A stretch of 64,000 bases of DNA from Hyphomonadaceae bacterium BRH_c29 (GTDB taxonomy: Bacteria; Pseudomonadota; Alphaproteobacteria; Caulobacterales; Hyphomonadaceae): assembly GCA_000961695.1 (NCBI GenBank), contig LADW01000091.1:1-64000 (forward strand), read 5' to 3'. Each line of letters begins with the position of its first letter. The first letter of the stretch is position 1. This document shows positions 2,011 to 31,602 of this stretch, one piece after another. A program made the translations under genes and the position numbers. The notes beneath the pieces were generated by a model. That model did no database searches, was not told the DNA's origin, and was given only the letters and a program-made list of their open reading frames with translations.

Positions 2011-2031
2011 ATCCGGATGCGGCACTTGTCG

Positions 2032-4319: not shown

Positions 4320-4340
4320 AAAGCAGAAAGGATGATTGCC

Positions 4341-5537: not shown

Positions 5538-5555
5538 CCGGTCGATGCCGGTGAC

Positions 5556-5569: not shown

Positions 5570-5671
5570 TCGGCGGCCGCGCGCACATCAAAGACAGGCT
5601 ACTGCGTGCGCCCATAAGCTTCCACTAATTCGCTCCGAGCCGTTTCGCCTAAAGCGCGTCTTTATCCCAGC

Positions 5672-5741
5672 GCCATGGCGGCCCGGCCGAGGGTGACGGG
5701 GGAAACCCCGCCGCCTCCCGTGCTTGGAAAGGAGCCTTGCG
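5672..5741 (+). promoter_or_regulatory. Structured moaA leader, possible Moco-type riboswitch
   Basis: Directly before the ribosome site, GGCGG (5677-5681) can pair with CCGCC (5711-5715), enclosing a hairpin CGGGG (5697-5701), GAAA loop, CCCCG (5706-5710), followed by CTCCCG. A GNRA-capped hairpin and a GCCTCCCG-like 3' end just ahead of a moa gene recall the Moco RNA motif of moaA leaders. The resemblance is from memory, not from a covariance search. The AAAGGAG ribosome site (5728-5734) lies immediately downstream, where a switch could control translation. Confidence 0.42.
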
Positions 5742-6734: not shown

Positions 6735-6735
6735 T

Positions 6736-7503: not shown

Positions 7504-7592
7504 GCATTCTCCAGAGACGCTTAGCAGCTTTTACTTATTCAATTCAGCGTCGCTCGTCTCCGCTGACACTCCGCCTCACGCTTAAAGAGAAC

Positions 7593-7606
7593 TTGATTAA
7601 TGTCAA
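7593..7606 (+). promoter_or_regulatory. Fnr/Dnr-type box between regulator and narK
   Basis: TTGATTAATGTCAA, i.e. TTGAT-N4-GTCAA, the same half-sites as the boxes before nrdJ and moaA. It is 90 bases from the regulator start and 210 from narK, so it more likely serves the regulator gene. Confidence 0.7.
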
Positions 7607-7728
7607 GCTCAAGCCGGATCCATGTCTGGTCCTTCGCGTGCGCGAGTCATGCCGGAACCACAGCTTCGTCAGTCCTCCGAAGATTGATTTCAAACGGCGC
7701 CCCCAGAGAGCATCTGGCAATAGGACAC

Positions 7729-7742
7729 TTTACAAATATCAA
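7729..7742 (-). promoter_or_regulatory. Imperfect Fnr/Dnr-type box close to narK
   Basis: Plus strand TTTACAAATATCAA; the minus strand reads TTGAT-N4-GTAAA, one base from the GTCAA half-site of the other boxes. Its centre is 80 bases from the narK ATG. A class II promoter at this position would start near 7777 with CATTCT (7765-7770) as a weak -10 and give a leader of about 40 bases. Confidence 0.5.
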
Positions 7743-7815
7743 GGCAAACCCGCGCACCAGGCGGCAGACATTCTTCTCGTACTAGGGAACTTTTGCCCGA
7801 GCGGGGGGCCACATA

Positions 7816-10551: not shown

Positions 10552-10566
10552 GAAAGGACCCTCCCA

Positions 10567-15827: not shown

Positions 15828-15830
15828 CCC

Positions 15831-16514
15831 ATGGCGACGACCTATCGCGCGCTCTCGCGCCTCCTGTCTTATCCGGAAGCACAGCTTCAGGCTGAAGCAC
15901 GCCTGTGCGTTGATGTGATACGGCAAGAAGGTCTCGTACCGGAACGCATCGTTGCGTCACTCGGCAAGCTGGCGGATCACATAGCCGGCGGCGATCTCTA
16001 TGATGTTCAGGCGACCTATGTGGACCTGTTCGACCGGACGCGGAGCGTTTCGTTGCATCTGTATGAACACGTCCATGGCGAGAGCCGTGAGCGCGGGCCG
16101 GCCATGGTCGGGCTGGTCGAGCTCTACCGGGCCCAGGGTCTGGAAATGGAGGTCAGCGACCTGCCGGACTATCTTCCGGTATTTCTTGAATTCCTCTCGA
16201 TCCTTCCCGATGCAGAAGCCGCGTCGCTGATCGGTGAAGCCGCGCATGTCCTGGAAGCGATCGCCGAACGGCTCAAGAAGCGGCAGAGTCTTTACCGGGC
16301 TGTTTTCGGTGCCCTCCTGGCGATTTCCGACCGGCTTGCAGACCGGACGGCTGTTGAGAGCCTGCTGGCGATCAAGGACGATGATCCCAACGACCTCGAT
16401 GCGCTCGACAAGGCCTGGGAAGAAGAAGCTGTCACCTTCGGCCCCGGATCGGAAAAAGATGGCTGCCCCAAGGCGCAGGCCATGCTCAACACCATGCAGG
16501 GAACCAGGCAATGA
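15831..16514 (+). CDS. narJ: NarJ, nitrate reductase assembly chaperone
   Basis: 227 residues, helical and acidic, as in the NarJ/DmsD chaperone family that guides cofactor insertion and membrane docking of NarGH. Seen: YRALSRLLSYPEAQLQ at the N-terminus and LHLYEHVHGESRERGPAMV near 75, the best-conserved NarJ block. It starts 3 bases after narH. The gene after it is a porin, not narI as usual; the stop overlaps the porin start (ATGA). Confidence 0.94.
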   Translation: MATTYRALSRLLSYPEAQLQAEARLCVDVIRQEGLVPERIVASLGKLADHIAGGDLYDVQATYVDLFDRTRSVSLHLYEHVHGESRERGPAMVGLVELYRAQGLEMEVSDLPDYLPVFLEFLSILPDAEAASLIGEAAHVLEAIAERLKKRQSLYRAVFGALLAISDRLADRTAVESLLAIKDDDPNDLDALDKAWEEEAVTFGPGSEKDGCPKAQAMLNTMQGTRQ

Positions 16515-17710
16515 AATGCTTATTCCCCGCCTGCTTGTCGGGTCTTACAGCGCTTGCGCTGGTCCTTCCAGTGCAGGCACAGGAGGCCGAGAGCACCGTC
16601 AAGCCGATTCTGGAGCTGCGGCTTCGCGCCGAGCAGGTTGATCAGGACGGCCTCGACAGCACCACGGCACTGACGCTTGCGGGCCGGTTCGGCCTCGACG
16701 CAAAGCTAGGTAAGGGATGGAGCGCGCTGATAGAAGGCGAAGCCGTTGGTCACCTTACAGATGACTTTTCCGACACGGTAGAAATAGTACGCGGAAAGGC
16801 TGTGATTGCGGATCCTGAAGCGTTCGAACTCAACCGATTGCAGGTAACCTGGAAAGGTGAACGGGCGAATGCCGTGATTGGCCGCCAGAGGATCATCTTC
16901 GATGATGCCCGGTTTGTCGGCAATGTCGGATTCCGCCAGAACGAGCAGACCTTCGATGCTGCCCGGATCGGCTTTACGGGCTTCCGGAATGTCACCCTGG
17001 ATTATGTGTTCATCGACAAGGTGCACCGCGTTTTTGGTGACGAGAGTCCTGCGGGGGAGTTCGAAAGCGATTCTCATCTGGTGCGTGCGGGCGTCGAGAC
17101 TGCAATCGGCAGCTTCGTAGCGACCGGGATGTTTCTCAATTTCGATGAATCGGCCGGCGCCTCTGGACAGACTCTGGCTCTTGGCTGGTCCGATTCCTGG
17201 AAATTGGAGGCGGGTACGCTCGGTCTGAATGCCCGGTTCGCGCAGCAGAGCGAATATGACGGAAGAGGTCCCGCGCAAGACCTGGGCTATCAGTCCTATG
17301 GCGCGAGCTTCGCGCGCGAGGATATCACGTTTGTCGGCGGTGTCGAAATCCTCGAAGGCGCCGGTGGACGTGGATTTGCAACACCGCTGGCCACTTTGCA
17401 CGCCTTTCAGGGGTGGGCGGACGTGTTCCTCAACACGCCCGCGGCAGGTGTTCGCGATTTCAGCCTTGGACTGAAGGGCGGTGGAGTCGACCTGATCGAT
17501 GGGGCCAAGCCGGCCAACTGGGCGGTCTTCTACCACGATTTCGACAGCGACAATGGCAGTCTCTCCTATGGATCGGAGCTCGACGCGATCTTCCGCATTC
17601 CGGTCAATGACTGGCTGACATTGGAAGCCAAAGGCGCTGTTTTCAATGGTGCCGACAACGGCCCTGCAGACAGGACGAAATTCTGGCTGGCGCTGGAAAC
17701 GCGCTTCTAG
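16511..17710 (+). CDS. Outer-membrane porin, alginate-export-like, inside the nar operon
   Basis: 399 residues with a signal peptide (KCLFPACLSGLTALALVLPVQA, cleavage probably after VQA) and alternating amphipathic strands ending in Phe (FWLALETRF), the outer-membrane beta-barrel signature. The block RLQVTWKGERANAVIGRQRI with DDARFVGNVGFRQNEQT is typical of the alginate-export (AlgE-like) porin family, many of whose members are not alginate-specific. It overlaps narJ by 4 bases and precedes narI by 24, so it is firmly in the operon. Nitrate or nitrite passage across the outer membrane is an inference from position only. Confidence 0.82.
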   Translation: MKCLFPACLSGLTALALVLPVQAQEAESTVKPILELRLRAEQVDQDGLDSTTALTLAGRFGLDAKLGKGWSALIEGEAVGHLTDDFSDTVEIVRGKAVIADPEAFELNRLQVTWKGERANAVIGRQRIIFDDARFVGNVGFRQNEQTFDAARIGFTGFRNVTLDYVFIDKVHRVFGDESPAGEFESDSHLVRAGVETAIGSFVATGMFLNFDESAGASGQTLALGWSDSWKLEAGTLGLNARFAQQSEYDGRGPAQDLGYQSYGASFAREDITFVGGVEILEGAGGRGFATPLATLHAFQGWADVFLNTPAAGVRDFSLGLKGGGVDLIDGAKPANWAVFYHDFDSDNGSLSYGSELDAIFRIPVNDWLTLEAKGAVFNGADNGPADRTKFWLALETRF

Positions 17711-17734
17711 CCAAGCAACGAAAGGAGGCCAGTC

Positions 17735-18505
17735 ATGGCTCAGGAACACGTGAGTACACTCGCAACCGCAGGCTGGCTCGACCAGGCCATGTTTGGCTAT
17801 TACCCCTACATCGCACTCGCGGTGCTCGCCGTCGGATCGGTCCTCCGGTTCGATCGTGAGCCTTACACTTGGCGTTCCGGCTCGTCCCAGCTGTTGCGCC
17901 GCAAGCAACTCGTACTCGGCTCGGTACTTTTCCATGTCGGCGTTCTGATCATTTTCGGCGGGCATTTCGTCGGCTTGCTGACGCCAATTCAGGTCTTCGA
18001 CGCGATCGGTGTTAGCCACGGCGCCAAGCAGGTGCTTGCCATCGTCGCCGGCGGGGTCGCTGGGGTGTTCGCGATTCTTGGCGCTCTCATCCTGCTGCAT
18101 CGGCGCCTGTTCGACCCGCGCATCCGCGCGACGTCCAGCTTCGGCGATACGGGGATCCTTGCGCTTCTGACTGCGCAGCTCGCGCTTGGCCTGTCGACCA
18201 TCCCGCTGTCGTCCCAGCATCTGGATGGTTCGGAGATGGTGAAATTCATGTCTTGGGCGCAGAGCATCTTTACCTTCCAGCCCGGCGCGGCGAACCATGT
18301 CGCGGACGTGCATTGGATATTCAAGACACACCTGTTCCTCGGACTGACCATCTTCCTGGTCTTCCCGTTCACCAGGCTTGTCCACATGCTGTCTGCTCCG
18401 GTCTGGTATCTGGGGCGCCGTGGCTGGCAGCTGGTGCGTACGCGCCGCGACATCAAGGCGGACAAGACACAGGCTGCGGAAGTTGCCGCGAGGAGGGCGT
18501 CATGA
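17735..18505 (+). CDS. narI: NarI, nitrate reductase cytochrome b subunit
   Basis: 256 residues with five membrane segments; it oxidises quinol and passes electrons through two haems b to NarH. Seen: candidate haem ligands in VLFHVGVLIIFGGHFVG (two His, near 69-79) and DVHWIFKTHLFLG plus RLVHMLS (near 190-215). It is slightly longer than many NarI proteins because of a charged C-terminal tail. AAAGGAGG precedes the ATG. Separation from narJ by a porin is unusual. The stop overlaps the next gene (ATGA). Confidence 0.96.
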   Translation: MAQEHVSTLATAGWLDQAMFGYYPYIALAVLAVGSVLRFDREPYTWRSGSSQLLRRKQLVLGSVLFHVGVLIIFGGHFVGLLTPIQVFDAIGVSHGAKQVLAIVAGGVAGVFAILGALILLHRRLFDPRIRATSSFGDTGILALLTAQLALGLSTIPLSSQHLDGSEMVKFMSWAQSIFTFQPGAANHVADVHWIFKTHLFLGLTIFLVFPFTRLVHMLSAPVWYLGRRGWQLVRTRRDIKADKTQAAEVAARRAS

Positions 18506-19635
18506 CACTGGCGAGTGCCGTCTTCCACGGTGTTGAAATCCCCGAAAGCCTTTTGGCGTCCGAGCTACAGAACCATCAGGCGCCGACCCTGGCGCAGGCA
18601 CGTGTTCTGGCAGGCCGGGCGCTTGCCGCCAGGGCCGTGCTGCTTGCACGCGGTCAGGAGCTTGGCCTTGTCGCCGTGCCCGAAAAAAATGCGGATGGAC
18701 AGGAAGAAACGCCTGACGAAGCATTGATCAGGGCTGTCCTGAGCGAGGAGGTCGAGGCTGAGCCTGCCTCGGAAGAAGCTATCCGCGCAGTGTACATGAG
18801 CAATCCGGAGGGCTTCCGGTCACCGCCGCTTCTTGAGGCCTCCCACATCCTGATCTCGCCTTCGGATGCCAGCGCTTCGGCATCGCATATTGCGCGCCAA
18901 CAAGCGCAAGCCCTGATTTCGGACCTTCGGGCAGATCCGTCCGGGTTTGCAAGGTTGGCGGCAAGCAAGTCGGCATGTCCGTCTGCGGCGGAAGGGGGGA
19001 GTCTTGGCCAACTTCGTCCTGGTGACGTGCTGCCCTCCATCTGGTCCGCGCTCAACGTCATGGATGCTGGCACGATCGGCCCCGAACCTGTCGCCAGCGA
19101 GCATGGCTGGCATGTCTTGCGGCTCGATCATCGCTGTGACGGCGAGCGCCTGCCTTTCGACTATGTCCGGCCGCACATCGCGATGCGGATTGAAGCGCGC
19201 GCCTGGACAAGAGCGGCCGCTGTCTATGTCGACGGGCTCCTCGCCGAATCTTCCGCAAATCCGGGTCTCTGCCTCACGGAATCGGGTGAACTCGCAGACG
19301 GACATGGAAATGTCGCACAAGCCGACGGACTGCTCGGCCAAGCGCTTTCGGATGTGGGGCGCGCATATGACGCCCTCAGCCCTACGGCCCGGGCGCGGCT
19401 CGATCATGCTGCCTCCAGTGATGGCGAGGTTGCGACCGTGCTTCTCTCGCGGATGATAAGGGCGTTCCTGTCCAAGGCCGGCGATGAGATCTGGACACAG
19501 CTGATCTCGCGCTTGCGTGACAGCGATACGCCGTTATCGGACAGTCTCGATCTGATTGTGACCCACCAGCTTCCACCTCTGCGTAAGACACATGCGCTGA
19601 TCGCAATGAGACAAGGGCCGCAAGCGACCCCTTAG
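18502..19635 (+). CDS. PpiC-type (parvulin) peptidyl-prolyl isomerase of the nar operon
   Basis: 377 residues from the ATG overlapping narI; a longer frame reaches further upstream but lies over narI. The parvulin domain spans about residues 110-215 (LEASHILISPSDAS, AAEGGSLGQLRPGDVLP, GWHVLRLDHR). No signal peptide is visible, so it is probably cytoplasmic, unlike SurA or PpiD. A PpiC-type gene after narI is also known in Pseudomonas nar operons; help in folding or maturation of the reductase is the usual proposal. The C-terminal about 130 residues are helical and not recognised. Confidence 0.85.
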   Translation: MTLASAVFHGVEIPESLLASELQNHQAPTLAQARVLAGRALAARAVLLARGQELGLVAVPEKNADGQEETPDEALIRAVLSEEVEAEPASEEAIRAVYMSNPEGFRSPPLLEASHILISPSDASASASHIARQQAQALISDLRADPSGFARLAASKSACPSAAEGGSLGQLRPGDVLPSIWSALNVMDAGTIGPEPVASEHGWHVLRLDHRCDGERLPFDYVRPHIAMRIEARAWTRAAAVYVDGLLAESSANPGLCLTESGELADGHGNVAQADGLLGQALSDVGRAYDALSPTARARLDHAASSDGEVATVLLSRMIRAFLSKAGDEIWTQLISRLRDSDTPLSDSLDLIVTHQLPPLRKTHALIAMRQGPQATP

Positions 19636-19650
19636 GGAAAGGAAAAGGTC

Positions 19651-20211
19651 ATGGACAATTCCGGAGAGTTCAAGCCGATTGAGCGGATCCCGCACGACCT
19701 TCTTCGGGAACCGCTCATCTGGTTCTTCGCGGAGCATTACCGTCATCGTGACGTCTGCGCCCGGTTGATGGCTCTGTCGCAATCGGTCATCTTCGACGAA
19801 GCGGCAATGCGTGACGTCTACGTTTTCCTCGACCAGGATCTGCCATTGCACGTTATCGATGAGGAAGACGACCTGTTTCCGCTGCTTCGCCGACGCTGCG
19901 AACCGGACGACCAGATCGAGAAAGTGCTTGGAATGCTCTCGGCCGAACATGCCAATGACATGATGGATGCGGGGGCGGTCAAGTCTCTTGTCGCGCGGGC
20001 GCTGGCTGAGCAGCGGGGGCTTGCCTCCTTTGTTGAGGCCCGCTCAATCATCGAACCCTTCTGCCAGCAGCAGAAGCGCCATATCGCCGTCGAAAACGCG
20101 GTAGTCCTGCCCATTGCAAGGCATCGCCTGAATGAGGCGGACCTGATCAGCCTGGGTCAGCGGCTCGCGGCGCGTCGTGGGCTCGACAATCCGTTCACGG
20201 ATGCCGCATGA
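19651..20211 (+). CDS. Hemerythrin-like HHE domain protein
   Basis: 186 residues, mainly four helices with His/Glu pairs that can bind a di-iron centre: FAEHYRHRD (near 28), DLPLHVIDEEDDLFP (near 68), SAEHANDMMD (near 100) and KRHIAVENAVVLP (near 144). Proteins of this type sense or handle oxygen, NO or iron. AAAGGAAAAGG precedes the ATG. It lies at the end of the nar operon and overlaps the carbonic anhydrase gene by 4 bases. A role against nitrosative or oxidative damage is inferred from position and family. Confidence 0.85.
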   Translation: MDNSGEFKPIERIPHDLLREPLIWFFAEHYRHRDVCARLMALSQSVIFDEAAMRDVYVFLDQDLPLHVIDEEDDLFPLLRRRCEPDDQIEKVLGMLSAEHANDMMDAGAVKSLVARALAEQRGLASFVEARSIIEPFCQQQKRHIAVENAVVLPIARHRLNEADLISLGQRLAARRGLDNPFTDAA

Positions 20212-20846
20212 TCCGGACGTTACTGGAAAACAACATGCAATGGGCGAGTGCGCGCGTGCGCGCTGAGCCCGATTTCTTCCGTCGGCTGTCTGCCCAGCAA
20301 GCGCCCGAATATCTCTGGATCGGATGCAGCGACAGCCGTGTGCCGGCTAACGAAATTGTTGGTCTCGACCCGGGCGAACTGTTCGTGCATCGTAATATCG
20401 CGAACCTTGCGCCCCCGCGTGACATGAATTTTCTCGCCGTGCTGCAGTTTTCCATAGAGGTGCTGAAGGTGCGCCACATCATTGTCTGCGGACACTACGG
20501 TTGTGGCGGCGTGCGGGCTGCGCTGGACACGCAGAGACGCGGGCTGATCGATCACTGGCTGCAGCCCGTAGCCGATCTCGCGCACAGACACGAAGATCAT
20601 CTCAAGGAAATTGCCGATTTCGACACCCGCGTGAACGTTGCGTGCGAGCATAATGTGCGGGCGCAAGTGGAATATCTCGGTCACAATCCCTTCGTCGCGG
20701 ATGCTTGGCGGCGCGGCCAGAAGCTTGCGATCCATGGCTGGATATATTCCATTCGTGACGGTCTGTTGCGCGACCTTGACCTGAGCGTCGAACGTTCGAG
20801 GGATGTTGACCGTCTCGCTTCGAGAGCGTGGTTTCCCGATGGATAA
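20208..20846 (+). CDS. Beta-class carbonic anhydrase
   Basis: 212 residues, cytoplasmic. It interconverts CO2 and bicarbonate. Seen: zinc ligands C40 (WIGCSDSRVPAN, with the D42-R44 dyad), H96 and C99 (VCGHYGCGGVRAAL), all intact, and GELFVHRNIAN. It starts inside the hemerythrin stop and overlaps mobA, so it is translated as part of the nar operon tail. A carbonic anhydrase in a nitrate-reductase operon is unusual; pH or bicarbonate balance during respiration is a guess. Confidence 0.95.
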   Translation: MIRTLLENNMQWASARVRAEPDFFRRLSAQQAPEYLWIGCSDSRVPANEIVGLDPGELFVHRNIANLAPPRDMNFLAVLQFSIEVLKVRHIIVCGHYGCGGVRAALDTQRRGLIDHWLQPVADLAHRHEDHLKEIADFDTRVNVACEHNVRAQVEYLGHNPFVADAWRRGQKLAIHGWIYSIRDGLLRDLDLSVERSRDVDRLASRAWFPDG

Positions 20847-21414
20847 TGTCGGTGTCGTCATCCTTGCAGGCGGGCTGGGAACGCGTCTGGGCGGCGGCAA
20901 GCCGGAACGGCTGTTCCGGGGACGGAGGTTGATCGATCCTGTTCTTGACTTGGCGAACGCCTGGCGTCAGCCTGCCGTCATCTGTGTGCGGGAGCAGGGA
21001 CAGGTGAGAGGGGATGGCTTTGAGCAGATTTTCGACCGGCAGGGTATTGAAGGCCCCCTTGCCGGATTGCTTGCTGCGTTCGATTGGGGACGCAGCAAAG
21101 GTCTCGACCGGTTTCTCACCCTGCCTTGCGATACGCCCTTCTTGCCCGACGACGTCCTGCCAAAGCTCCTGTGCGCATCCATGGACAGTAACCGGCCGGC
21201 CGTCGCGACGTCGAACGGGCGCCGCCACCCAACCTGTGTTGTCTGGCCGACGGAAGCATTTGTCTGCGTAGAGAGCTATGCGGAAACCGGGCGGCGAAGT
21301 CTGACGGCTGCACTCGATGCCTGCCATGCTGTCGATGTGACGTGGGCGGAAAGCGCGCCGGACCCGTTCGTGAACATCAACACGCATGAAGATCTTATCA
21401 GCTTCCAAAGCTGA
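20839..21414 (+). CDS. mobA: MobA, molybdenum cofactor guanylyltransferase
   Basis: 191 residues from the ATG at 20839, overlapping the carbonic anhydrase stop by 8 bases. MobA attaches GMP to Mo-molybdopterin to give the MGD form used by NarG. Seen: VVILAGGLGTRLGGGKPERLF (nucleotide loop), IEGPLAGLLAAF, and LPCDTPFLPDD (metal/substrate site). An upstream in-frame start at 20803 would lie deeper in the previous gene and was not chosen. It completes the set moaC, moeA, moaA, mobA in this window. Confidence 0.93.
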   Translation: MDNVGVVILAGGLGTRLGGGKPERLFRGRRLIDPVLDLANAWRQPAVICVREQGQVRGDGFEQIFDRQGIEGPLAGLLAAFDWGRSKGLDRFLTLPCDTPFLPDDVLPKLLCASMDSNRPAVATSNGRRHPTCVVWPTEAFVCVESYAETGRRSLTAALDACHAVDVTWAESAPDPFVNINTHEDLISFQS

Positions 21415-21469
21415 CCACTTGAGACGTTCAACTGGACGCGGCTGGTCCCCCAGGTTTGGCAAGATTTTT

Positions 21470-21883
21470 TTACATTCTCATGTCCGCCAATGAGATATCT
21501 GCCAGCGTGCTTCGGTTTAGATCGGCAAGAAAGGCGTTGCTGGCAGACTGCAGCCGGGCCCGGAGACGGCAGTGACGGACAATGGAGCAGGTGCCTCCGC
21601 CAACGGAGAAACACTCCACGAGTGTCTGGCCATCTTCCAGGAGTTCGACCAGATCGCCGAGTTTCAGGTCCTGGGGCGCCTTGGCCAGTCTCGCGCCACC
21701 GCCGGCGCCACGCCGTGTTGTGACCACGCCGGCATCGACCAGTTTCTGCATGATCTTGGCAAGGTGGTTTCTGGAGAGCCCGAAGTCTTCCGATAATTGT
21801 GCCGTCGAGACGGGATGATCCGGTGTCGCGGCCATACGCATAAGCATGCGCAATCCATAGTCAGTGAATGAGGTGAGACGCAT
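21470..21883 (-). CDS. nsrR: NsrR-like Rrf2-family repressor
   Basis: 137 residues starting MRLTSFTDYGLRMLMRMA, the NsrR hallmark. The start at 21883 was chosen because GGGGGAGG lies just before it. The helix-turn-helix is at about 25-50 (FGLSRNHLAKIMQKL). CFSVGGGTCSIVRHC (near 85-100) supplies the three cysteines that bind the NO-sensitive Fe-S cluster. It faces the truncated haemoglobin gene across a palindromic operator. It probably represses that gene and itself until NO destroys the cluster. Confidence 0.9.
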   Translation of the reverse strand: MRLTSFTDYGLRMLMRMAATPDHPVSTAQLSEDFGLSRNHLAKIMQKLVDAGVVTTRRGAGGGARLAKAPQDLKLGDLVELLEDGQTLVECFSVGGGTCSIVRHCRLRARLQSASNAFLADLNRSTLADISLADMRM

Positions 21884-21903
21884 TGCCTCCCCCTGCCACA
21901 TGA

Positions 21904-21926
21904 AATCGGTATTTACAATACCAATT
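21904..21926. promoter_or_regulatory. NsrR-type operator between nsrR and the haemoglobin gene
   Basis: Two 11-base halves around one central base: AATCGGTATTT and, on the other strand, AATTGGTATTG, matching at 9 of 11 positions. The core GGTATT-TAC-AATACC is a perfect dyad. The 11-1-11 layout with AAT...ATT ends is that of NsrR sites (AANATGCATTT consensus). It lies 21 bases from nsrR and 46 from the haemoglobin start. Confidence 0.68.
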
Positions 21927-21940
21927 AAGCCTCTTAACCT
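21912..21940 (+). promoter_or_regulatory. Candidate promoter for the truncated haemoglobin operon
   Basis: TTTACA (21912-21917) as -35 and TAACCT (21935-21940) as a weak -10, 17 bases apart. The -35 lies inside the NsrR-type operator, so bound repressor would block polymerase. Confidence 0.35.
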
Positions 21941-21971
21941 GAACTACACTGAAGTTCTTAAGGAGCGTTGC

Positions 21972-22436
21972 GTGTCCGGAGCAAACCCACCGCAGACTGT
22001 CGCATATACGGTGCGTCCTGAGGAAACGGCTGTGCTTGCCGAGCGGACCGGGCTCGATGAAATGATGCTGTCCAGGTTGGTTGGGACCTTCTATGAGCGC
22101 ATCCGGTCTGATCCTGCCCTGGGGCCGATATTTGAGGCGCGCATCGGGAACTGGCCGGATCATCTGGACCGGATGGTGGATTTCTGGTCATCGGTCGCGC
22201 TCATGACCGGGCGGTACCATGGAACACCCATGCAGGCGCATGTCGGGCTCCCGGTGAACGAATCCCATTTCGAACGATGGCTGACCCTGTTCCGGGAAGC
22301 GGCCCGTCAGGTTTGCTCGCCGGCCGGTGCCAACTATTTGATCGTTCGGGCCGAACGTATCGCCCGGTCAATCCATCTCGGCATCTCTGCGCAAGCAGGG
22401 ATTCCGAAGAAGGCCAAGAGGGGAAATGCAACATGA
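21972..22436 (+). CDS. Truncated haemoglobin, group III-like
   Basis: 154 residues from a GTG at 21972 with AAGGAG six bases before it. The longer frame from 21864 runs through the operator and was rejected. Globin features: FYERIRSDPALGPIF, WPDHLDRMVDFWSSV, and PMQAHVGLPVNESHFERWL with the proximal His. Length and the RMVDFW block suit group III trHb. A role in NO or peroxynitrite handling is supported by the NsrR-like gene and operator next to it. It overlaps the following HHE gene by 4 bases. Confidence 0.88.
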   Translation: MSGANPPQTVAYTVRPEETAVLAERTGLDEMMLSRLVGTFYERIRSDPALGPIFEARIGNWPDHLDRMVDFWSSVALMTGRYHGTPMQAHVGLPVNESHFERWLTLFREAARQVCSPAGANYLIVRAERIARSIHLGISAQAGIPKKAKRGNAT

Positions 22437-22975
22437 CATTGCCTGAAACGACCGCCGAGCTGACGACGTATATTGAAAACCGCTATCATGCGCGTCACCG
22501 GGAGCAATTGCCGGAGCTGAGGAGCCTGTCGGCGAAGGTGGAAGCCGTGCACGCGGAGAGTCCGGATGTGCCGGCGGGGCTTGCGGACCTTCTGGCGGAC
22601 ATAATTGGCGAGCTGGAAGTACACATGAAGAAAGAGGAGCTGATCCTCTTTCCGGCGATCCGCCAGGGGCATGGCTCGCAAATGGGTCATCCCATCTCCG
22701 TCATGCGCGCCGACCATGACGATCATCTCGGCGCGATCGCGAAAATCCGCTCTCTGACAAAGAATCTGACTTTGCCTGAACATGCATGCGGAACCTGGAG
22801 GCGGCTATACACTGGTCTTGGCGAATTTCTTTCTGACATCGAGGAACATATCAGGGTCGAAAATGACATCCTGTTCCCGCAGTTCGAGAGTGAAAAGCGC
22901 GCAGAGCCGGGACCATATGCGTCGTCTCCCTGCATGGCACATGAGTTTGAAGGCGGTGGCGAGCGGAATTCCTGA
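22433..22975 (+). CDS. HHE di-iron protein, RIC/YtfE-type catalytic domain
   Basis: 180 residues. Four-helix HHE protein with YHARHREQLPEL, EVHMKKEELILFPAI, HPISVMRADHDDH and EEHIRVENDILFPQF: the His/Glu spacing of the repair-of-iron-centres family (YtfE, ScdA, DnrN). The short N-terminal ScdA domain of full RIC proteins is absent. It overlaps the haemoglobin gene (ATGA), so both form an NsrR-type NO-response operon. Repair of NO-damaged Fe-S clusters is the expected job; the missing domain makes this less certain. Confidence 0.86.
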   Translation: MTLPETTAELTTYIENRYHARHREQLPELRSLSAKVEAVHAESPDVPAGLADLLADIIGELEVHMKKEELILFPAIRQGHGSQMGHPISVMRADHDDHLGAIAKIRSLTKNLTLPEHACGTWRRLYTGLGEFLSDIEEHIRVENDILFPQFESEKRAEPGPYASSPCMAHEFEGGGERNS

Positions 22976-22989
22976 ACTGGTGAACCGGT

Positions 22990-23673
22990 ATGTATGTGGC
23001 AAGAATATCTCAGGCGGAACGTCGTGAAACGGCTGATCGCAGGCTTCTGAAGGCGGCGTGCCGCATCATATCGGGATACGGTCTATCCGCATTGACGTGT
23101 GAAGACGTCGGGAAGCTTGCTGGCTATAGCCGGGGGCAAACCTACCAACGCTTCGGGTCCAAGGAGGGGCTGCTTATTGCTGCAGTCGAGCGGCTGCGTG
23201 CTTACAGACGGGAATGTGTGAAGCAGGACGCCCAGCGCGGCAAGTCCGGTATCGAAGAACTGATTGATTATTGCGGTCTTCACCTCGGCGCTTTGACCAA
23301 AGGTCCGGAAATGGCCGCCTATTTCGGTGTCTTGTCCGGTCCGGTACCGTCCAAGCAAAAGCTGAGGCAGGCAGTTGATGCCGCGCGCGCGGAGATTTTC
23401 GAAGAGATATCACTCCTGCTCGCTCAGGCGAGAAGAGACGATACGGTTCAGGATGGTGTCGATATCGAACGTGACGTCCCAATGATCTTTGGTCTGATGA
23501 GCGGCATTGCGCTCCAGTATCGACAATTCCGGAGTGCGGGCGATTTCCGCCAGGTCCGGCGCGATGCAGAAGTATTCTTGTGCAACGCCATATCTCCCAC
23601 ATCCAAATCCAGTTCGCAGGGGCGTGTCCTGGAATTGGCGGCTTCAGTTCCCAAGCCTGCTACAACGCAGTAG
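22990..23673 (+). CDS. TetR-family transcriptional regulator
   Basis: 227 residues. The N-terminal helix-turn-helix (about 15-65) reads LLKAACRIISGYGLSALTCEDVGKLAGYSRGQTYQRFGSKEGLL when split by position, with a Gln where most relatives have Leu/Val before Tyr. The C-terminal ligand domain is not recognised. It begins 14 bases after the HHE gene and may be in the same transcript. The target is unknown. It is the last gene before the tRNA-fragment scar. Confidence 0.82.
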   Translation: MYVARISQAERRETADRRLLKAACRIISGYGLSALTCEDVGKLAGYSRGQTYQRFGSKEGLLIAAVERLRAYRRECVKQDAQRGKSGIEELIDYCGLHLGALTKGPEMAAYFGVLSGPVPSKQKLRQAVDAARAEIFEEISLLLAQARRDDTVQDGVDIERDVPMIFGLMSGIALQYRQFRSAGDFRQVRRDAEVFLCNAISPTSKSSSQGRVLELAASVPKPATTQ

Positions 23674-23960
23674 GGCAAACACCCCGGGATTGAAGAAGGT
23701 CCTCGTCACCCGAAACTCATCGCGGTGCTTGGCTTTGAAGCGCGCCGCGTGACGGGCGAATCTCAACCTGATTGCCCTTCTCAGCGATCTACCCGGGCTT
23801 GGCGCTTCTGGATGCCATTTGCTGTGGGGCGCCTCTCTGCATTCCCAACAATGCCCGTATGTTCCTGCGACTTTCTAGCTGGCATCTAGCTGGAAGGGGA
23901 CGAGCAGAAACATCGAGAGCTATGTCAGGTCATATACCTTGGAAATAAAAGAGAAAAATA
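23674..23960. other. Gene-free stretch before the tRNA fragments
   Basis: No gene is recognised. CTAGCTGG occurs twice three bases apart (near 23875-23893). Open frames of about 50-60 codons exist on both strands but have no start context or known motif; they could be debris of a lost element. Confidence 0.4.
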
Positions 23961-24005
23961 TGGAGCGGGTAAAGGGAATCGAACCCTCGTATTCAGCTTG
24001 GCAAG
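23961..24005 (-). pseudogene. 3' half of tRNA-Gly(GCC), att-like fragment
   Basis: On the minus strand this reads from the anticodon loop (CTTGCCAAG, anticodon GCC) through a variable region, T-arm (GAGGG TTCGATT CCCTT) and acceptor strand to an encoded CCA (23961-23963). The D-arm and 5' acceptor strand are missing: bases beyond 24005 do not continue the tRNA. A fragment starting at the anticodon loop and ending at CCA is what a tyrosine integrase leaves at the far end of an integrated element. Confidence 0.8.
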
Positions 24006-24030
24006 ACTAACGCAAAGTACCCGGCCCCGA

Positions 24031-24065
24031 CGCCAAATCACGGTATTTGCGGTTTACATTTGGCG
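24031..24065. repeat. 8-bp inverted repeat between the tRNA fragments
   Basis: CGCCAAAT (24031-24038) and ATTTGGCG (24058-24065) are perfect inverted copies 19 bases apart in AT-richer DNA. They may be protein-binding arms of an attachment site or chance. Confidence 0.4.
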
Positions 24066-24141
24066 CTTATCAACCTTGTTTTTTATATGGAAATCCTTAG
24101 ATGGTTTACTGCTACTTCCATGTAAAATAACGAAAAACGCG

Positions 24142-24189
24142 TCGTTTACACCGAGAGGGTCAGCGGTTCGAGCCCGTTACCGCCCACCA
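24142..24189 (+). pseudogene. 3' half of tRNA-Val(UAC), att-like fragment
   Basis: The sequence runs TCG, loop TTTACAC (anticodon TAC), CGAGA, variable loop, T-arm (AGCGG TTCGAGC CCGTT), acceptor strand ACCGCCC and CCA (24187-24189). The 5' half is absent; bases before 24141 do not form a D-arm. Orientation is opposite to the tRNA-Gly fragment, so both CCA ends point outward from the 136-bp stretch between them. Confidence 0.8.
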
Positions 24190-24276
24190 TCTTCTGTATA
24201 GAGGCAGCCGCTGCCAACGGCATTTCCGTGATTGCAATTGAGCACAATCATACGCCTCTGTCGGAACGAACTCCTA

Positions 24277-24978
24277 TCAAAGTGTTGTATTCATTTGATA
24301 TCCGGGTGCGAAGACCAGCCGGACGGACGTAATGGCCTGAGCGTCTCTGCGCGTGGTTCGATCAATCACGAAAAGTCCTTCACCAATCCGGCATTGAAGC
24401 AAGTCTGCAACATGCTTGTCGGCACTGATTGCCGAAAAGGTGATATCCCCCGCGCTGTAGGGAATGTTTTTCACAAGCCATTCATTCGGGCTCAATTGTG
24501 AAAAATCGACGCTTTCGATGGCGGGAACGGCGTCCGGATTGATCCAGCGTTCCTCCACGACATAGGGTTTTAAGTCGGCGGTATGGATGCAAACAAGGTG
24601 GAGCATCTTTGTGCCGCGTTGCAACGCCATTTTCACGGCAATAGGGGGCGGGGCCGCAGCACGCTTCCGGGAAATCTGAGCGTAGCCGTAAGTGTGGCCC
24701 TTGTCGGTAATTTCCTTGCGGATAACGGGGATTTCCAATGTCGCCTTACGGACTGGAAACATGGCGACCCGTGTGCCGGCCTTCCGCTTGCGGTCCAGAA
24801 GCCCGGAATCGGCCAGGCTTTGGAGTGCGCGGTTCACCGTCGCGCGTGCACAGCCGAACTCCTTCGCGAGGTCTGCCTCATTGGGGATCAGGTCGCCCTG
24901 ATTCCAGACCCTTCCATGAATGCGGCGGACCACTTCTTCCTGCACCGCTTGCCAATTGTTGAAGACAGGCTGAGTCAC
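24277..24978 (-). CDS. hutC: HutC, GntR-family repressor of histidine utilisation
   Basis: 233 residues from a GTG overlapping the hutF stop. N-terminal winged helix (about 10-75: DLAKEFGCARATVNRALQSLADSGLL) and C-terminal UTRA ligand domain (about 95-230: LHLVCIHTADLKPYVVEERWIN). HutC represses hut genes and is released by urocanate. It follows hutF in one operon and faces the rest of the cluster across the 26.36-kb palindrome. It is the first gene after the tRNA-Val fragment. Confidence 0.94.
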   Translation of the reverse strand: MTQPVFNNWQAVQEEVVRRIHGRVWNQGDLIPNEADLAKEFGCARATVNRALQSLADSGLLDRKRKAGTRVAMFPVRKATLEIPVIRKEITDKGHTYGYAQISRKRAAAPPPIAVKMALQRGTKMLHLVCIHTADLKPYVVEERWINPDAVPAIESVDFSQLSPNEWLVKNIPYSAGDITFSAISADKHVADLLQCRIGEGLFVIDRTTRRDAQAITSVRLVFAPGYQMNTTL

Positions 24979-26339
24979 AGTGCGTCTCCGAGTTCTTGCA
25001 TGATCGCTCGGTAACGGCCGACGATGGCCTCGCGTGCAATGTGCTGGCCTTCGCGCACCATGTGACGTCCCGCTGACCAGACGTCGGTGACGAGGCTGTC
25101 ATCCCCCGCAAAGATGTAGCTGTCGAGAAGGGTGTCGCCGGTGCGCCCGGCGAGATCGATATGGCCATCGTCAATGGCGACAAGATCAGCCAGCCGCCCC
25201 TCTGAAATGCTTGCGTTATCGCGTCCCGACGCAAGCGCGCCGCCACGATTGATAGCATCAAATAGGCGCCGCCCTGTGGAGACATCAGGCATGGCGAGTG
25301 CGGCGCGTGACCGGTCACGCAGACGTTGGGAGTATTCGAGCGCTCGTAACTCCTCGGTGAGTGAAATGCGGATGTTGGAATCCGAGCCGATCGCAAGCGC
25401 ACCGCCCGCACCAAGCCAGGCGGTCGCGTTGAAAACGCCATCCCCAAGGCTGGCTTCCGTTACCGGACATATGCCTGCCACGGCACCGGTGTGGGCGAGC
25501 CGGGCCGCCTCATCGGCGTCCATCTGGATGCAATGAATCAGACACCACTTGGGCCCCGCGTCGCATTGGTCCAGGAAAAAACTGACAGGGCGCGCGCCAT
25601 GGACGGCCATGACCTCGTCCACTTCTGCTTGCTGTTCAGAGAGGTGCATGTGAATTGGACCGTCGCCTGCAAGCTCGCTTGCAGCTTGCAGGTCCCGAGC
25701 CGCAACGGCGCGAAGGCTGTGAGGCGCAACGCCAAGACGGCAGTCGCTGGGCAAGTATCTCATCGTATGTTGGGCCTGGCGGTGCAGCTTCGCGAAGCAT
25801 TCGAAGTCATTTCCGAAGCGAATCTGGCCCGGCCCGAGTGGCCGACCGTCGCAGCCGCCGAATTCGTAGTGAACCGGCAGAAGCGTCAGGCCGATGCCTG
25901 TTTGTGCTGCGGCTGCGACGATCCGATCCGACATTTCGGACAGTTTGTCATACGTGGCGCCGCCGGGCTGGTGATGCAGATAGTGAAACTCGACGTTTGC
26001 TGAATATCCCGCCTCAAGCATCTCCATCTGCACGAAGGCGGCGATGCCTTCGACATGATCCGGGGTCAGCCGGTCAAGAAACCGGAACATCAGCCGGCGC
26101 CATGTCCAGAATGAATCGCTGGGATCCGGGCCTCTGCGTTCTGTCAGGCCTGCCATCGCTCGCTGGAAGGCGTGCGAGTGGGCGTTGGCGGGTGCCGGCA
26201 ACAGGATGCCTGTCCGGTGACCTTCGGATTGTTGTCCGGTACGGACTGAAATGATTGTGCCCGACTCGTCAAATTCAACGCGGACATCCTTGGCCCAGCC
26301 GCCCTCAAGAAGTGCAGTTCGCGCCGAGATGACTGTCAT
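24975..26339 (-). CDS. hutF: HutF, formimidoylglutamate deiminase
   Basis: 454 residues from the ATG at 26339, with AAGGATGG properly placed before it; the longer frame from 26402 crosses the operator. An amidohydrolase that converts N-formimidoyl-L-glutamate to N-formyl-L-glutamate and ammonia. Seen: PAPANAHSHAFQRAMAGL (metal His pair), EFHYLHHQP, GVAPHSLRAV, PIHMHLSEQQAEVDE, and ALAIGSDSNIRISL with the metal Asp. It works with HutG in the five-step route. Confidence 0.95.
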   Translation of the reverse strand: MTVISARTALLEGGWAKDVRVEFDESGTIISVRTGQQSEGHRTGILLPAPANAHSHAFQRAMAGLTERRGPDPSDSFWTWRRLMFRFLDRLTPDHVEGIAAFVQMEMLEAGYSANVEFHYLHHQPGGATYDKLSEMSDRIVAAAAQTGIGLTLLPVHYEFGGCDGRPLGPGQIRFGNDFECFAKLHRQAQHTMRYLPSDCRLGVAPHSLRAVAARDLQAASELAGDGPIHMHLSEQQAEVDEVMAVHGARPVSFFLDQCDAGPKWCLIHCIQMDADEAARLAHTGAVAGICPVTEASLGDGVFNATAWLGAGGALAIGSDSNIRISLTEELRALEYSQRLRDRSRAALAMPDVSTGRRLFDAINRGGALASGRDNASISEGRLADLVAIDDGHIDLAGRTGDTLLDSYIFAGDDSLVTDVWSAGRHMVREGQHIAREAIVGRYRAIMQELGDAL

Positions 26340-26362
26340 TAACGACCATCCTTGACTCAATA

Positions 26363-26378
26363 ATATGTGCAGACATAT
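26363..26378. promoter_or_regulatory. Candidate HutC operator
   Basis: ATATGT-GCAG-ACATAT, a perfect 6-4-6 palindrome midway in the 73-base gap between the divergent hutF and hutI genes. GntR/HutC operators are short AT-rich dyads with TGT/ACA cores, and the position would control both operons. Confidence 0.6.
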
Positions 26379-26412
26379 AAAAAATCTTTCCGGAATTGGC
26401 AATGAGGGAATG

Positions 26413-27606
26413 ATGCTCCTGACTCACGCAAATCTGGCGACATTCGATGCCGACGGGGCATATGGCCTTGTAACGGATGGCGCGATCTGGATTGAGAGTG
26501 AGTGCATTCGCTGGGTCGGACCGATGCAGGATGCGCCGCAGGAAACTGGGGCGGGAGAGCGCCTGGATCTTGGCGGACGGCTGGTTACGCCTGGACTCGT
26601 TGACTGCCATACGCACATCGTTCACGCGGGCAATCGTTCCAAAGAATTTGAGATGCGCCTCGGCGGAGCTTCATACGAAGAAGTGGCGCGAGCAGGTGGG
26701 GGCATCAATTCAACTGTCACGGCGACGCGAGACGCAAGCGAGGAAGACCTGCTTTGCAGCGCCCTGACTCGCGTTGATGCACTGATTTCGGAAGGCGTCA
26801 CGACGCTTGAAATAAAATCAGGATACGGACTTAATATTAAGTCGGAACTCAAGATGTTGCGTGTGGCCCGAAAGATCGCGCGTGAGAGACCTGTCCGGGT
26901 AAAAACCAGCTTTCTCGGGGCGCATTCCGTCCCGGCTGAATATTCCGGCCGGGCGGATGCTTATCTGGATGAAGTTTGCTTGCCTGCGCTGGCTGCTGCC
27001 GATGAAGCGGGGTTGGTCGACGCTGTTGACGGGTTTTGCGAAGGGATTGCGTTCAGCCGTGAGCAAATCCGGAGGGTTTTCGAGGCGGCGAAATCTCTGG
27101 GGTTGCCAGTGAAGCTGCATGCCGAACAATTGTCAAATCTCGGAGGCGCACAGCTCGCGGCCGAGTTCAGCGCCATGTCGAGTGATCATTTGGAATATGC
27201 GACCGAAGAGGATGTCGCAGCCATGGCTCGTGCCGGCATGGCGGCCGTTTTGCTTCCTGGCGCGTTCTATTTTCTGCGGGAAACGAAGCTTCCGCCGCTC
27301 GAGGCGCTGCGAAGCCATGGCGTGGCGATGGCGCTGGCCACCGACTGTAATCCGGGAACGTCCCCCCTGACCTCACCTCTATTGGTCATGAACATGGCGT
27401 GCACCTTGTTCAGAATGACGCCCGAGGAGGCATTGTCTGGCGTAACCCTGCATGGTGCGCAGGCGCTGGGATTGAATGACTGTGGAAAGCTCTGCGCAGG
27501 TGCGCGGGCCGACCTTGCAATCTGGGACGTCGAGCATCCGGCAGAGCTGGCTTACAGGATTGGCTTCAACCCTTTGCACAAGCGTATTTTCGCGGGAGCG
27601 ATGTGA
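26413..27606 (+). CDS. hutI: HutI, imidazolonepropionase
   Basis: 397 residues from the ATG at 26413, five bases after GAGG; the adjacent ATG at 26410 is possible. It hydrolyses imidazolonepropionate to formimidoylglutamate. Amidohydrolase motifs: [21 protein letters not shown] (metal His pair), [20 protein letters not shown], and [12 protein letters not shown] with the metal Asp. First gene of the plus-strand hut operon; it overlaps hutH. Confidence 0.96.
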
Positions 27607-29144
27607 TGATGACTCTCGTGCCGGGCTCCGCGACACTGGCCCAACTTGAGACTGTTTGGCGCGCAGGCGCTCCGGTGAGACTGTCGGAGACGGCGCGTCC
27701 CGCAATAGAAAAGGCAGCGGCCATAGTCGCCGAGGCGGCTTCGGGTGAAGTGGCCGTGTACGGCGTAAATACCGGGTTCGGAAAGCTGGCCAGTATCAAG
27801 ATCAGGCCGGAAGACACCGAGACTTTGCAACGCAACCTTGTGTTGTCGCATTGCTGCGGAGTCGGCGAAGCGCTCGACGTGGCAACGACACGATTGATGA
27901 TGGCGCTGAAGCTCCTGTCGCTCGGGCGTGGAGCGTCAGGCGTGTCCTGGCGGACCATCGCCATGATGGAAGCCTTGCTCGACAAGGGCGTGACGCCGGT
28001 CATCCCCGGGCAGGGGTCTGTCGGCGCGTCGGGCGATCTTGCGCCATTGGCGCACATGGCTGCCGTCATGATTGGCGAAGGTGAAGCCCGGCTCGGCGAT
28101 GAGCGAATGCCTGCCATGCGGGCACTTGCAAAGGCGGGGCTCAAGCCCGTCACGCTCGGTCCCAAAGAGGGGCTCGGACTTATCAATGGCACTCAGTTTT
28201 CGACTGCCTGCGCTCTGGCGGGGCTGTTCGCCGCTAAGCGTACCGCGTTACAGTGCGTGGTTTCCGCAGCGCTTTCCACGGATGCAGTCATGGCATCGAC
28301 CGCGCCATTGCTGCCGGAAATACATGCGTTGCGCGGACACAAGGGACAAATTCGCATAGCGCGCGGGATGCGCGAACTCCTTGAGGGTTCCCAGATACGG
28401 GAAAGCCATCGTAGCGACGATTCACGCGTGCAGGATCCTTACTGTATCCGCTGCCAGCCACAGGTGACGGGTGCGGCGCTCGACCTTCTGGATTTTGCCG
28501 GGCAGACACTTGAGATCGAAGCAAATGCGGTGTCTGACAATCCGCTCGTTCTTGTCGAAACGGGGCAGATTGTTTCGGGTGGGAACTTTCATGCGGAGCC
28601 CGTCGCATTCGCCGCCGATCAGATCGCGCTTGCGATTGCCGAGATCGGCGCAATCTCGCAGCGCCGCGTCGCATTGATGGTCGACCCGACGCTGTCCTTT
28701 GATCTGCCGCCATTCCTGACACCGGAACCAGGATTGAACTCGGGGATGATGATCGCGGAAGTGACATCGGCAGCCTTGATGAGTGAGAACAAGCACCTGG
28801 CCAATCCGTGCTCAACTGATTCCACGCCAACGTCTGCCAATCAGGAAGATCATGTATCGATGGCCGCGCATGGTGCGCGCAGGCTTCACCGCATGAACCA
28901 GAACCTTGAGATGATCATCGCGGTGGAGTTGCTCTGTGGTGCACAGGGCGTCGAATTTCGCGCGCCGCTGGAAACTAGTCCGGCGTTGAAACGTGTGCTT
29001 TCGATGCTTCGTGAAAAGGTAAGTCGCCTCATGACCGATCGATACATGGCGCCCGATCTGGAGCAGGTCGCTATGATGGTCGCCAACGGAGATTTCTCTG
29101 CTGCAGCGGGGCTGCCGGCATCCATTGATGGGGTCACGGCATGA
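27606..29144 (+). CDS. hutH: HutH, histidine ammonia-lyase
   Basis: 512 residues; the ATG at 27606 overlaps the hutI stop (TGATG) and is six bases after GGGAG. It removes ammonia from histidine to give urocanate. Seen: [11 protein letters not shown] and [15 protein letters not shown], whose Ala-Ser-Gly makes the MIO prosthetic group (near residue 143). [15 protein letters not shown] and [10 protein letters not shown] are also conserved. It overlaps hutG by 4 bases. Confidence 0.97.
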
Positions 29145-29941
29145 CCCCCGTGAGTGTCCAGCGTGGCGATAGCCCCGTCGTGCTCGGTGTCCCGCACAGC
29201 GGCACTTTCGTGCCAGCCGATATTTTCAGCCGACTTACCCCACTGGGGCAAAGCCTTTCTGATGCGGATTGGCATGTCGACCGTCTTTACGAAGGCCTCC
29301 TTGCAGGAGCCACGATGGTGAAGGCGAATTTTCATCGCTATGTCATCGACGCAAACAGGGACCCTTCGGGGGCGAGCCTCTATCCCGGGCAAAACACGAC
29401 CGGGCTCGTGCCGATCACCGATTTCGACGGGCAGCCTTTGTGGCGCACTCCGCCCGACGAAGAAGAGATAGAGGTGCGGCGCGCAGCCTGGCATTTGCCG
29501 TACCATGCCGCCTTGAGTGCGGAACTGGCGCGCGTGAAAGCGATCCATGGTGTTGTCGTCCTGTACGATTGCCACTCGATCCGGTCGCACGCACCTTACC
29601 TGTTTGAAGGGACCCTACCGGATTTCAATATCGGGACGAACAACGGCGCGACATGCGATCCAGCACTGGAGCGCGCAGTATCCGAAACGTGTCGCAGGGT
29701 TCGAGGCCACACCATGGTTGTGAATGGCCGCTTTCGGGGGGGCTGGACGACACGCTTTTACGGTCGACCGGAAGACGGTGTACATGCAGTGCAGATGGAG
29801 CTTGTTCAGTCGACCTACCTCGCAACAGAAACGCTTCCCTTCGACTATGACGACGGCAAAGCACGGCTCATCCGCGGACATCTCGCGGCGGTTCTTGAGG
29901 CGCTTGAGCGCTCAGCATATCAACTAAAAGGCACATCATGA
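29141..29941 (+). CDS. hutG: HutG, N-formylglutamate amidohydrolase
   Basis: 266 residues. It splits N-formylglutamate into glutamate and formate, the last step of the HutF route. Seen: [30 protein letters not shown] and [19 protein letters not shown], with the metal-binding His and Asp residues of the family. It overlaps hutH and hutU by 4 bases each. It is the formylglutamate-type, not the arginase-like formimidoylglutamase also called HutG, in agreement with the presence of hutF. Confidence 0.94.
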
Positions 29942-31602
29942 CCGACCCACGCCATAACATGCGGGATATCTACCCGGCGACTGGAACCGAGATCACGGCA
30001 AAGAGCTGGCTGACCGAGGCGCCGATGCGAATGTTGATGAACAATCTGCATCCGGATGTTGCTGAAAATCCGCATGAGCTGGTCGTCTATGGCGGAATTG
30101 GACGTGCAGCACGCACATGGGCTGACTTCGACAAGATTGTTGCCAGCTTGAAAGAGCTGGAAGCAGACGAGACGCTTCTCGTCCAATCCGGAAAGCCGGT
30201 TGGCGTATTCCGCACGCATGCCGATGCGCCGCGCGTCCTGATTGCCAACTCGAATCTGGTGCCGCATTGGGCCAATTGGGACCATTTCAATGAGCTCGAT
30301 AAGAAAGGGCTCGCGATGTACGGTCAGATGACCGCCGGGTCCTGGATCTATATCGGGTCTCAGGGCATCGTGCAGGGGACATATGAAACCTTCGTTGAGG
30401 CTGGCCGCCAGCATTATGGCGGAGACCTCAGGGGGCGGTGGATATTGACGGGTGGATTGGGTGGTATGGGCGGCGCTCAGCCGCTGGCTGCCGTCATGGC
30501 GGGAGCGTGCTGTCTTGCGGTTGAGTGCGACGAGACGCGGGTCGATTTCCGTCTTCGTACACGGTATGTCGATGCGAAGACATCGAGCCTCGATGAAGCA
30601 CTGGAGATGATCGCCGGCTGGACAGCAGCGGGCGAAGCGAAATCTGTAGCGCTGATCGGCAATGCGGCGGATATATTCCCCGAGATTTTCGCCCGCGGTG
30701 TGCGGCCGGACATCGTGACGGACCAGACAAGCGCGCATGATCCGCTGCACGGATACCTGCCACAAGGCTGGACCATCGCAGAGTGGCGCGAAGCACAAGT
30801 GGTGGAGCCAAAGCGCGTCGAACAGGCTGCCCGGGCCAGCATGAAGATCCAGGTCAAGGCAATGGTCGATTTCTGGAATGCCGGCGTGCCAACACTCGAT
30901 TACGGCAACAATATCCGGCAGGTGGCGAAAGACGAAGGCCTTGAGAATGCATTCGACTTTCCTGGGTTCGTCCCGGCCTATATCCGACCGCTGTTTTGTC
31001 GGGGTGTCGGGCCGTTTCGCTGGTGCGCCCTGTCGGGAGACCCTGAGGACATCTACAAGACGGATGCAAAGGTGCGCGAACTGGTGGATGATCCGCATCT
31101 GCACAACTGGCTCGATATGGCGCGTGAACGGATTCCGTTCCAAGGGCTGCCCGCACGCATCTGCTGGGTCGGCCTTGGGGTGCGAGACAAGTTGGGTTTG
31201 GCTTTCAACGAGATGGTGCGAAACGGGGAGCTGTCTGCGCCGATTGTGATTGGCAGAGATCATCTGGATTCAGGATCTGTCGCCTCACCCAATCGCGAGA
31301 CGGAAGCCATGAGAGATGGTTCGGATGCCGTTTCGGACTGGCCACTGTTGAATGCCTTGTTGAATACGGCATCGGGCGCAACCTGGGTGTCGTTCCATCA
31401 TGGTGGCGGTGTCGGTATGGGCTTCTCCCAGCACTCGGGCATGGTGATTTGCTGTGACGGAACAGAAGAGGCCGATAAACGCATCGCACGGGTACTCTGG
31501 AATGATCCGGCGTCAGGCGTCATGCGCCACGCAGATGCAGGATATGAGTCGGCGCTTGAATGCGCTGTCGAGCATAAACTCAACTTGCCGGGTATTCTAT
31601 AG
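29938..31602 (+). CDS. hutU: HutU, urocanate hydratase
   Basis: 554 residues, normal length. It hydrates urocanate to imidazolonepropionate with tightly bound NAD+. Seen: [22 protein letters not shown] (NAD-binding loop), [21 protein letters not shown] with the reactive Cys, and [19 protein letters not shown]. The order hutI-H-G-U places the second enzyme last; all four genes overlap, so the operon is tightly coupled. Confidence 0.97.

Follow-up and report, generated by a model that had tools for sequence, protein, structure and literature searches.

Two tRNA 3′ halves that lie a short distance apart on opposite strands of this DNA probably mark the place where the proximal end of one integrative element, targeting tRNA-Gly(CCC), is fused to the distal end of another, targeting tRNA-Val(UAC), the two together forming a composite genomic island. 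The junction adds one more member to the composite islands, a kind already known, as are secondary attachment sites and multi-site ICEs; it would show, nearly down to the single base, how two islands with different tRNA targets can become one unit. The window, that is, the whole 64-kb stretch analysed (G000:C10:1-64000), comes from a 3.70-Mb genome (G000) in 96 contigs that is 94.6% complete. The features on which the argument rests are as follows, in window coordinates except for the last.

390..23673, plus strand: nitrate-respiration block, cargo on the left of the junction (Pfam for four gene names, reading by eye for the remaining open reading frames)
23872..23893, minus strand: paired arm-type repeats CCAGCTAGATGCCAGCTAGAAA of the Gly element proximal end, 68 and 79 bp past the CCA
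23961..24001, minus strand: tRNA-Gly(CCC) 3′ part, core of the Gly element (41 nt, 'CCAAG...CTCCA'; 40/41 against the gene on contig C64)
24002..24044, plus strand: stretch that extends the Val distal arm as far as the Gly core (similarity weak, above chance)
24045..24141, plus strand: distal arm of the Val element, by homology to Val elements of relatives
24051-24058 and 24103-24109, plus strand: GTTTAC(A)-type motifs in the distal arm
24121-24126: inverted TGTAAA in the distal arm
24142..24190, plus strand: tRNA-Val(UAC) 3′ part (to 24189) and one further base, attR core of the Val element (49/49 bp against contig C31)
24144-24150: GTTTACA within the Val core itself
24277..31602, unstranded: hut block, to the chromosomal side of the Val half (Pfam)
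L135:14971-16095, minus strand: tyrosine recombinase (integrase) of the Val element (PF00589, E 2e-11)

Two tRNA 3′ halves and their source genes

The original prediction described a Gly and a Val tRNA 3′ half at this place, on opposite strands, and both are real. ARAGORN finds no intact tRNA in the 64-kb window, where each of the two 3′-end patterns has a single match at up to three mismatches, as against none in 100 shuffles. No direct repeats occur in the 2 kb around the junction. Among the matches listed from a plasmid collection, query coverage was at most 17% and confined to the tRNA parts, and no record covered 80%.

The prediction also took the halves for attachment-site fragments left by two elements, and in this it was right. 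The Val half is identical over 49/49 bp to the 3′ part, plus one base, of the intact tRNA-Val(UAC) at G000:C31:66713-66788. The Gly half had been assigned to tRNA-Gly(GCC), of which the amino acid stands and the anticodon does not: it matches the intact tRNA-Gly(CCC) on C64 at 40/41 positions, while the intact tRNA-Gly(GCC), which is present on C4, matches at only 31/41 with one gap and is ruled out as the source gene. The GCC reading depends on a single base at the element junction. The one difference from the CCC gene is a C-to-T change at position 66, for which a G-U pair in the acceptor stem is still possible (checked by hand), and the bases before the half, up to 24005 ('CTTG'), are also tRNA-like in appearance.

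The Val element

The Val half is the normal distal attR of an integrative element that occupies tRNA-Val(UAC). Homologous elements of relatives carry the same core at their distal ends, and the G000 element has the intact tRNA gene at one end, on C31, and a copy of the 3′ part of that gene at the other, in the window, the two ends being on separate contigs. The order on C31 is lon, tRNA-Val, a gene for a Fic-domain protein, the tyrosine recombinase, a HEPN/nucleotidyltransferase gene and an open frame; an integrase, which the prediction had suggested looking for nearby, thus lies close to the intact tRNA-Val. Among all loci fetched, the sequence directly after the C31 tRNA-Val occurs only in G000, G002, G003, G005, G015, G026 and G158; at 17 further loci of the genus with an intact tRNA-Val it is missing. 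All seven genomes with this proximal end, G000 included, carry an integrase 95-99% identical to that of C31, and the same seven have a homologous distal arm. The arm together with the Val half was searched in 61 genomes, and the stretch between the halves alone in 398 genomes of the order, where it matched in six, G000 included; G015 is absent from that list, its arm coming from the 61-genome search. Both ends of the element lie on one contig in G026 (~60 kb apart) and in G158 (~55 kb apart). C31 and C10 would likewise be linked through one island, which spans a gap here because the two contigs are unjoined.

More distant integrases, 57-65% identical, lie beside tRNA-Val or after a Val half in G035, G013, G015 and G158, so that related elements, too, use this tRNA. 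Counting Val integrases by length was rejected in favor of identity, since the 378-aa frames of G006 and G032 are unrelated. At two places an integrase 60-65% identical to the Val integrase follows a Val half (L171/L221, G158:C8, right of 61815; L179, G015:C10), which means that elements stack at tRNA-Val.

A trb-type element in the tRNA-Val of relative G026 shares its proximal end and distal arm with that of G000 and has an integrase 98.7% identical. There, the integrase is followed by TrbE-, TrbB-, TrbI-, CagX/TrbG- and TraG-like genes (trb-type transfer and coupling protein); the element also has a relaxase-like protein whose relaxase match is below the Pfam cut-off, beside a strong DUF3363 match. 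The C31 homology skips the trb cluster, jumping from the post-integrase sequence to what is the far end of that cluster in G026 (L135:16573-16907 against L182:19112-19441), which suggests a loss of transfer genes from the G000 Val element. Of the relaxase and type IV secretion genes of an ICE, the sole candidate seen in G000 is the open frame at the C31 end, which has no Pfam match when searched alone and resembles the G026 relaxase by eye. Genes for Fic-domain proteins adjoin both the Val integrase (L135:13720-14841) and the Gly integrase (L207:749-2305).

The Gly element

The 3′ flank of the Gly half carries CAGCTAGA twice, 68 and 79 bp past the CCA. We scanned 42 Gly cores, the window included, for exact copies of CAGCTAGA within 1 kb downstream and found them in four: the window (68 and 79), G035 (68 and 79), G015 (67 and 78) and G029 (66). 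At two further Gly halves, in G006 and G035, the repeat stands upstream, at a distance of 164 bp. The core scan missed the G006 tRNA-Gly(CCC) that is occupied, since its T-stem differs, but here too the repeat is present, at 68. The paired-repeat pattern, at up to two mismatches, has six matches in 4/10 genomes, each near a Gly(CCC) core, as against none for the reversed control, and the window copy is the only one in G000.

Gly 3′ halves without a tRNA 5′ half were also found, among the loci fetched, in G002, G006, G017 (two), G019, G029 and G035; one in G015 begins at a contig end, where its 5′ side is not assessable. As element ends in relatives, such halves show that tRNA-Gly(CCC) is the target of other elements in the genus. 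In G006, 151 kb are bracketed by an intact, armed tRNA-Gly(CCC) (C33:106576-106649) and by a Gly half accompanied by an integrase (C33:256307-257900). This distal half also carries arms, and the sequence beyond it is also found near armless tRNA-Gly genes in G032, G028, G007 and G036.

Because the left flank of the Gly half in the window carries CAGCTAGA arms at the offset found next to the occupied tRNA-Gly(CCC) of G006 and G035, and one base off that of G015, the element side of this half is the left. The prediction had placed it, for both halves, in the stretch between them; for the Gly half this does not hold, that stretch being the distal arm of the Val element. Over 1.06 kb the left flank has no match in 47 tRNA-Gly-region loci except for the arms and one 32-bp match on C64. 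The remainder of a Gly element was not recovered from G000: its other (distal) end was not found in the 96-contig assembly, the tRNA-Gly(CCC) on C64 has no arms within 1 kb, and the closest of 11 matches to the G006 Gly integrase is 34% identical, with none on C10.

The junction between the two elements

Homology identifies what lies between the halves as the Val element's distal arm, and a weak similarity to other Val elements continues as far as the Gly core. The arm alone is 77-78% identical in G003, G005, G026, G158 and G002b, and the arm with the Val half 83-84% identical in G003, G005, G026 and G158. Up to the Gly core, the score of 24002-24044 was reached by 21/5000 shuffles against G003 and 14/5000 against G005, and that of 24002-24047 against G002a by 4/5000. 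The GTTTACA-type motifs of the arm, which are putative binding sites, are matched by a doubled GTTTACA motif at the proximal end on C31.

The Gly core starts in the anticodon loop, as the Gly(CCC) element ends of relatives do, some of them a few bases earlier. Read by eye, the matching place in Val elements without a Gly end (G003 type) is CGAGGAAGAC and the tRNA-Gly on the same strand is CTTGGGAAG, which gives a short GG-AAG match at the crossover. Nine Val distal ends were seen, of which two, in G000 and G002a, have a Gly core, both beside nitrate genes. The alignment test for the Gly core was run on G002a, G003 and G015a and the remaining ends were read by eye; the score was no better than that of shuffles in G003 and G015a, and no core was seen in the Val ends of G005, G026, G158, G015b and G002b.

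A second species has the same order on G002:C40, with nitrate genes, a decayed Gly half, the Val arm and, at the contig end, the start of the Val half. The decayed half scores 47, whereas none of 2000 shuffles exceeded 34, and the whole junction is 72% identical between G000 and G002. The latter genome also has an extra copy of the Val arm (L181, G002:C58:2687-2804) with no tRNA-Val half, which is joined at GTCGTTT to a CoA-ligase-like frame (by eye); this join is either an internal rearrangement or an assembly artefact.

Cargo of the island and chromosomal flank

The junction separates a nitrate block from a hut block, as had been described. The nitrate-respiration block contains narK, narGHJI, moa/mob genes, regulators, a globin, a hemerythrin and a TetR gene; a 911-aa frame at 7816-10551 of the window has, by eye, the look of a head-to-tail fusion of two nitrate transporters (NarK). 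Window 1-22945 is collinear, at 78-84% identity, with part of the 151-kb G006 Gly element, where the nitrate block has the same orientation to the arm end as in the window. The block may have come with the Gly element. It is, however, also present in G028 and G032, where the tRNA-Gly(CCC) loci, the part of these genomes examined for arms, have none, and it is thus not tied to Gly elements. Nitrate respiration in this genus can be borne on islands of this tRNA-targeting type.

The hut block comprises, by Pfam, a GntR/UTRA regulator, HutF, an amidohydrolase (HutI-like), an aromatic amino acid lyase (HutH), FGase (HutG) and urocanase (HutU). Window sequence to the right of it lies 1-16 kb downstream of tRNA-Val in 6/8 relatives examined, at the following distances from that gene.

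Window 32.8 kb onward: 3.5 kb in G019, 10.8 kb in G004, 15.6 kb in G036
Window ~38.1 kb onward: 1.6 kb in G012, 1.2 kb in G016
Window 39.8 kb onward: about 15 kb in G020

These six relatives show the locus free of the element, the interval being filled by other DNA, from 1.2 to 15.6 kb; no gene of the right flank was found within 19 kb of tRNA-Val in G007 or within 13 kb in G033. This proximity in 6/8 relatives identifies the DNA on the right of the window as chromosome that lies downstream of tRNA-Val, which by position puts the nitrate block inside the Val element and the hut block outside it. We had considered the hut block as part of a second Val element and dropped this, there being no further Val half (at up to three mismatches) to the right of it in the window. 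The hut block is inside the Gly element in G006 and outside the Val attR here, a difference which the composite model leaves unexplained and which counts against it.

Probable origin of the composite island

The likeliest origin is insertion of a Gly element at a secondary site within the Val element. A Val element, with its tyrosine integrase and its arms with GTTTACA, is integrated at tRNA-Val(UAC), next to lon, and the DNA to the left of its attR would be island. Just inside its end there follows the proximal, arm-bearing end of a Gly element, made up of two arms CAGCTAGA, the Gly 3′ half and then Val-element sequence, and this last occupies the place expected of the tRNA-Gly 5′ half. A Gly element, acting through its own integrase at the anticodon loop, would have recombined at a tRNA-Gly-like secondary site in the Val distal arm and would have brought or adjoined the nitrate genes, after which the composite would have been carried along in tRNA-Val. 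One end of a second element is thus seen inside the first, the Gly arms and core standing directly within the Val distal arm, and secondary-site integration, rather than another recombination event, presumably put it there. Val-element sequence expected beyond such an insertion (about 150-293 of the query, nearest the junction) had no match in G000; parts of the same query, 28-150, did match in G000, and these parts recur elsewhere.

The strongest competitor, which we hold to be a good deal less probable, is that the Gly end was grafted onto the Val end by homologous or illegitimate recombination between islands, through deletion or gene exchange, and that ~130 bp of Gly element are left. Because both the far Gly end and its integrase are absent from the assembly, a graft by other recombination followed by decay is a possible history, and the presence of the nitrate block in G028 and G032 without Gly arms at tRNA-Gly also fits it. 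A junction placed in the anticodon loop, where the Gly(CCC) element ends of relatives begin, argues instead for integration, as does the same junction in a second species.

The history given in the original prediction, either a meeting of two elements at their distal ends with later loss of both or an inversion that brought two such ends together, is improbable. It accounts for two halves that both run to CCA on opposite strands over a short stretch. The Val element, however, was not lost: its attL, its integrase and the start of the element persist on C31. To the left of the Gly half lies the arm end of an element, not chromosome, and with the Gly element on that side no inversion is needed.

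Slightly less probable again is an island with two working attachment systems, Val and Gly(CCC), whose cores lie at one end, the Gly core being kept by selection because it is used; such an island could enter either tRNA gene or be put together from two parts of the chromosome. The near-intact Gly core, with one change in 41 and pairing kept in a junction that as a whole is diverged from that of G002, agrees with this. Against it stand the decay of the G002 copy of the core, the armless tRNA-Gly(CCC) on C64 and the lack of a G006-like Gly integrase in the incomplete G000 assembly. A reading in which the Gly half has belonged to the end of the Val element since ancient times, without any second element, is very unlikely: the two Val ends that bear nitrate genes (G000 and G002a) do carry it, but it was not seen in the other seven, and it comes with the arms of a separate, Gly, element family.

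Relation to known composite and multi-site islands

The proposed insertion of a Gly element into a Val element has a close counterpart in Shewanella putrefaciens CN-32, where CGI48 with nested GI21 forms a composite island (PMC8978831). In each case a tRNA-integrated island holds a second island of its own specificity that was captured, here probably, by site-specific recombination; both excise in CN-32, whereas here there is one end of the inner element, known from sequence alone. Salmonella genomic island 1, with its secondary attB and tandem arrays, is likewise an integrative element using a second attachment site, which in that case is chromosomal, whereas here it would be inside another element (PMC2297512). 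The tripartite ICEs of Mesorhizobium are similar in that one mobile unit has several attachment systems of different specificity; they have three att pairs and three integrases, in contrast to the one Gly core without a known integrase seen here (PMC8627217). An integrase for each att pair, as in the tripartite type, was not found in G000, whose incomplete assembly yields no close Gly-type integrase. Among the best matches of a literature search, none dealt with this locus or with a nitrate island in either tRNA-Val or tRNA-Gly(CCC), and accounts of these may exist elsewhere. In draft genomes, the paired arm repeats and the cores provide simple markers for the ends of both element families.

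Variation at other tRNA-Gly(CCC) loci

Three further observations concern tRNA-Gly(CCC) in relatives. The G006 gene (L259, C33:106576-106649) has a double, pairing-preserving change in the T-stem, GAGAG/CTCTT, where its attR copy (L263) reads GAGGG/CCCTT, as though the 3′ half had come with the element. Downstream of tRNA-Gly(CCC) at L226 (G009:C41) and L235 (G021:C34) stand motifs of the GTTTACA type that the Val elements have, and the Val family may thus have a Gly-targeting branch. In G028 (L229) and G032 (L230), tRNA-Gly(CCC) is flipped with respect to its crcB-like neighbor (by eye) when compared with six other genomes, which is a small local inversion.
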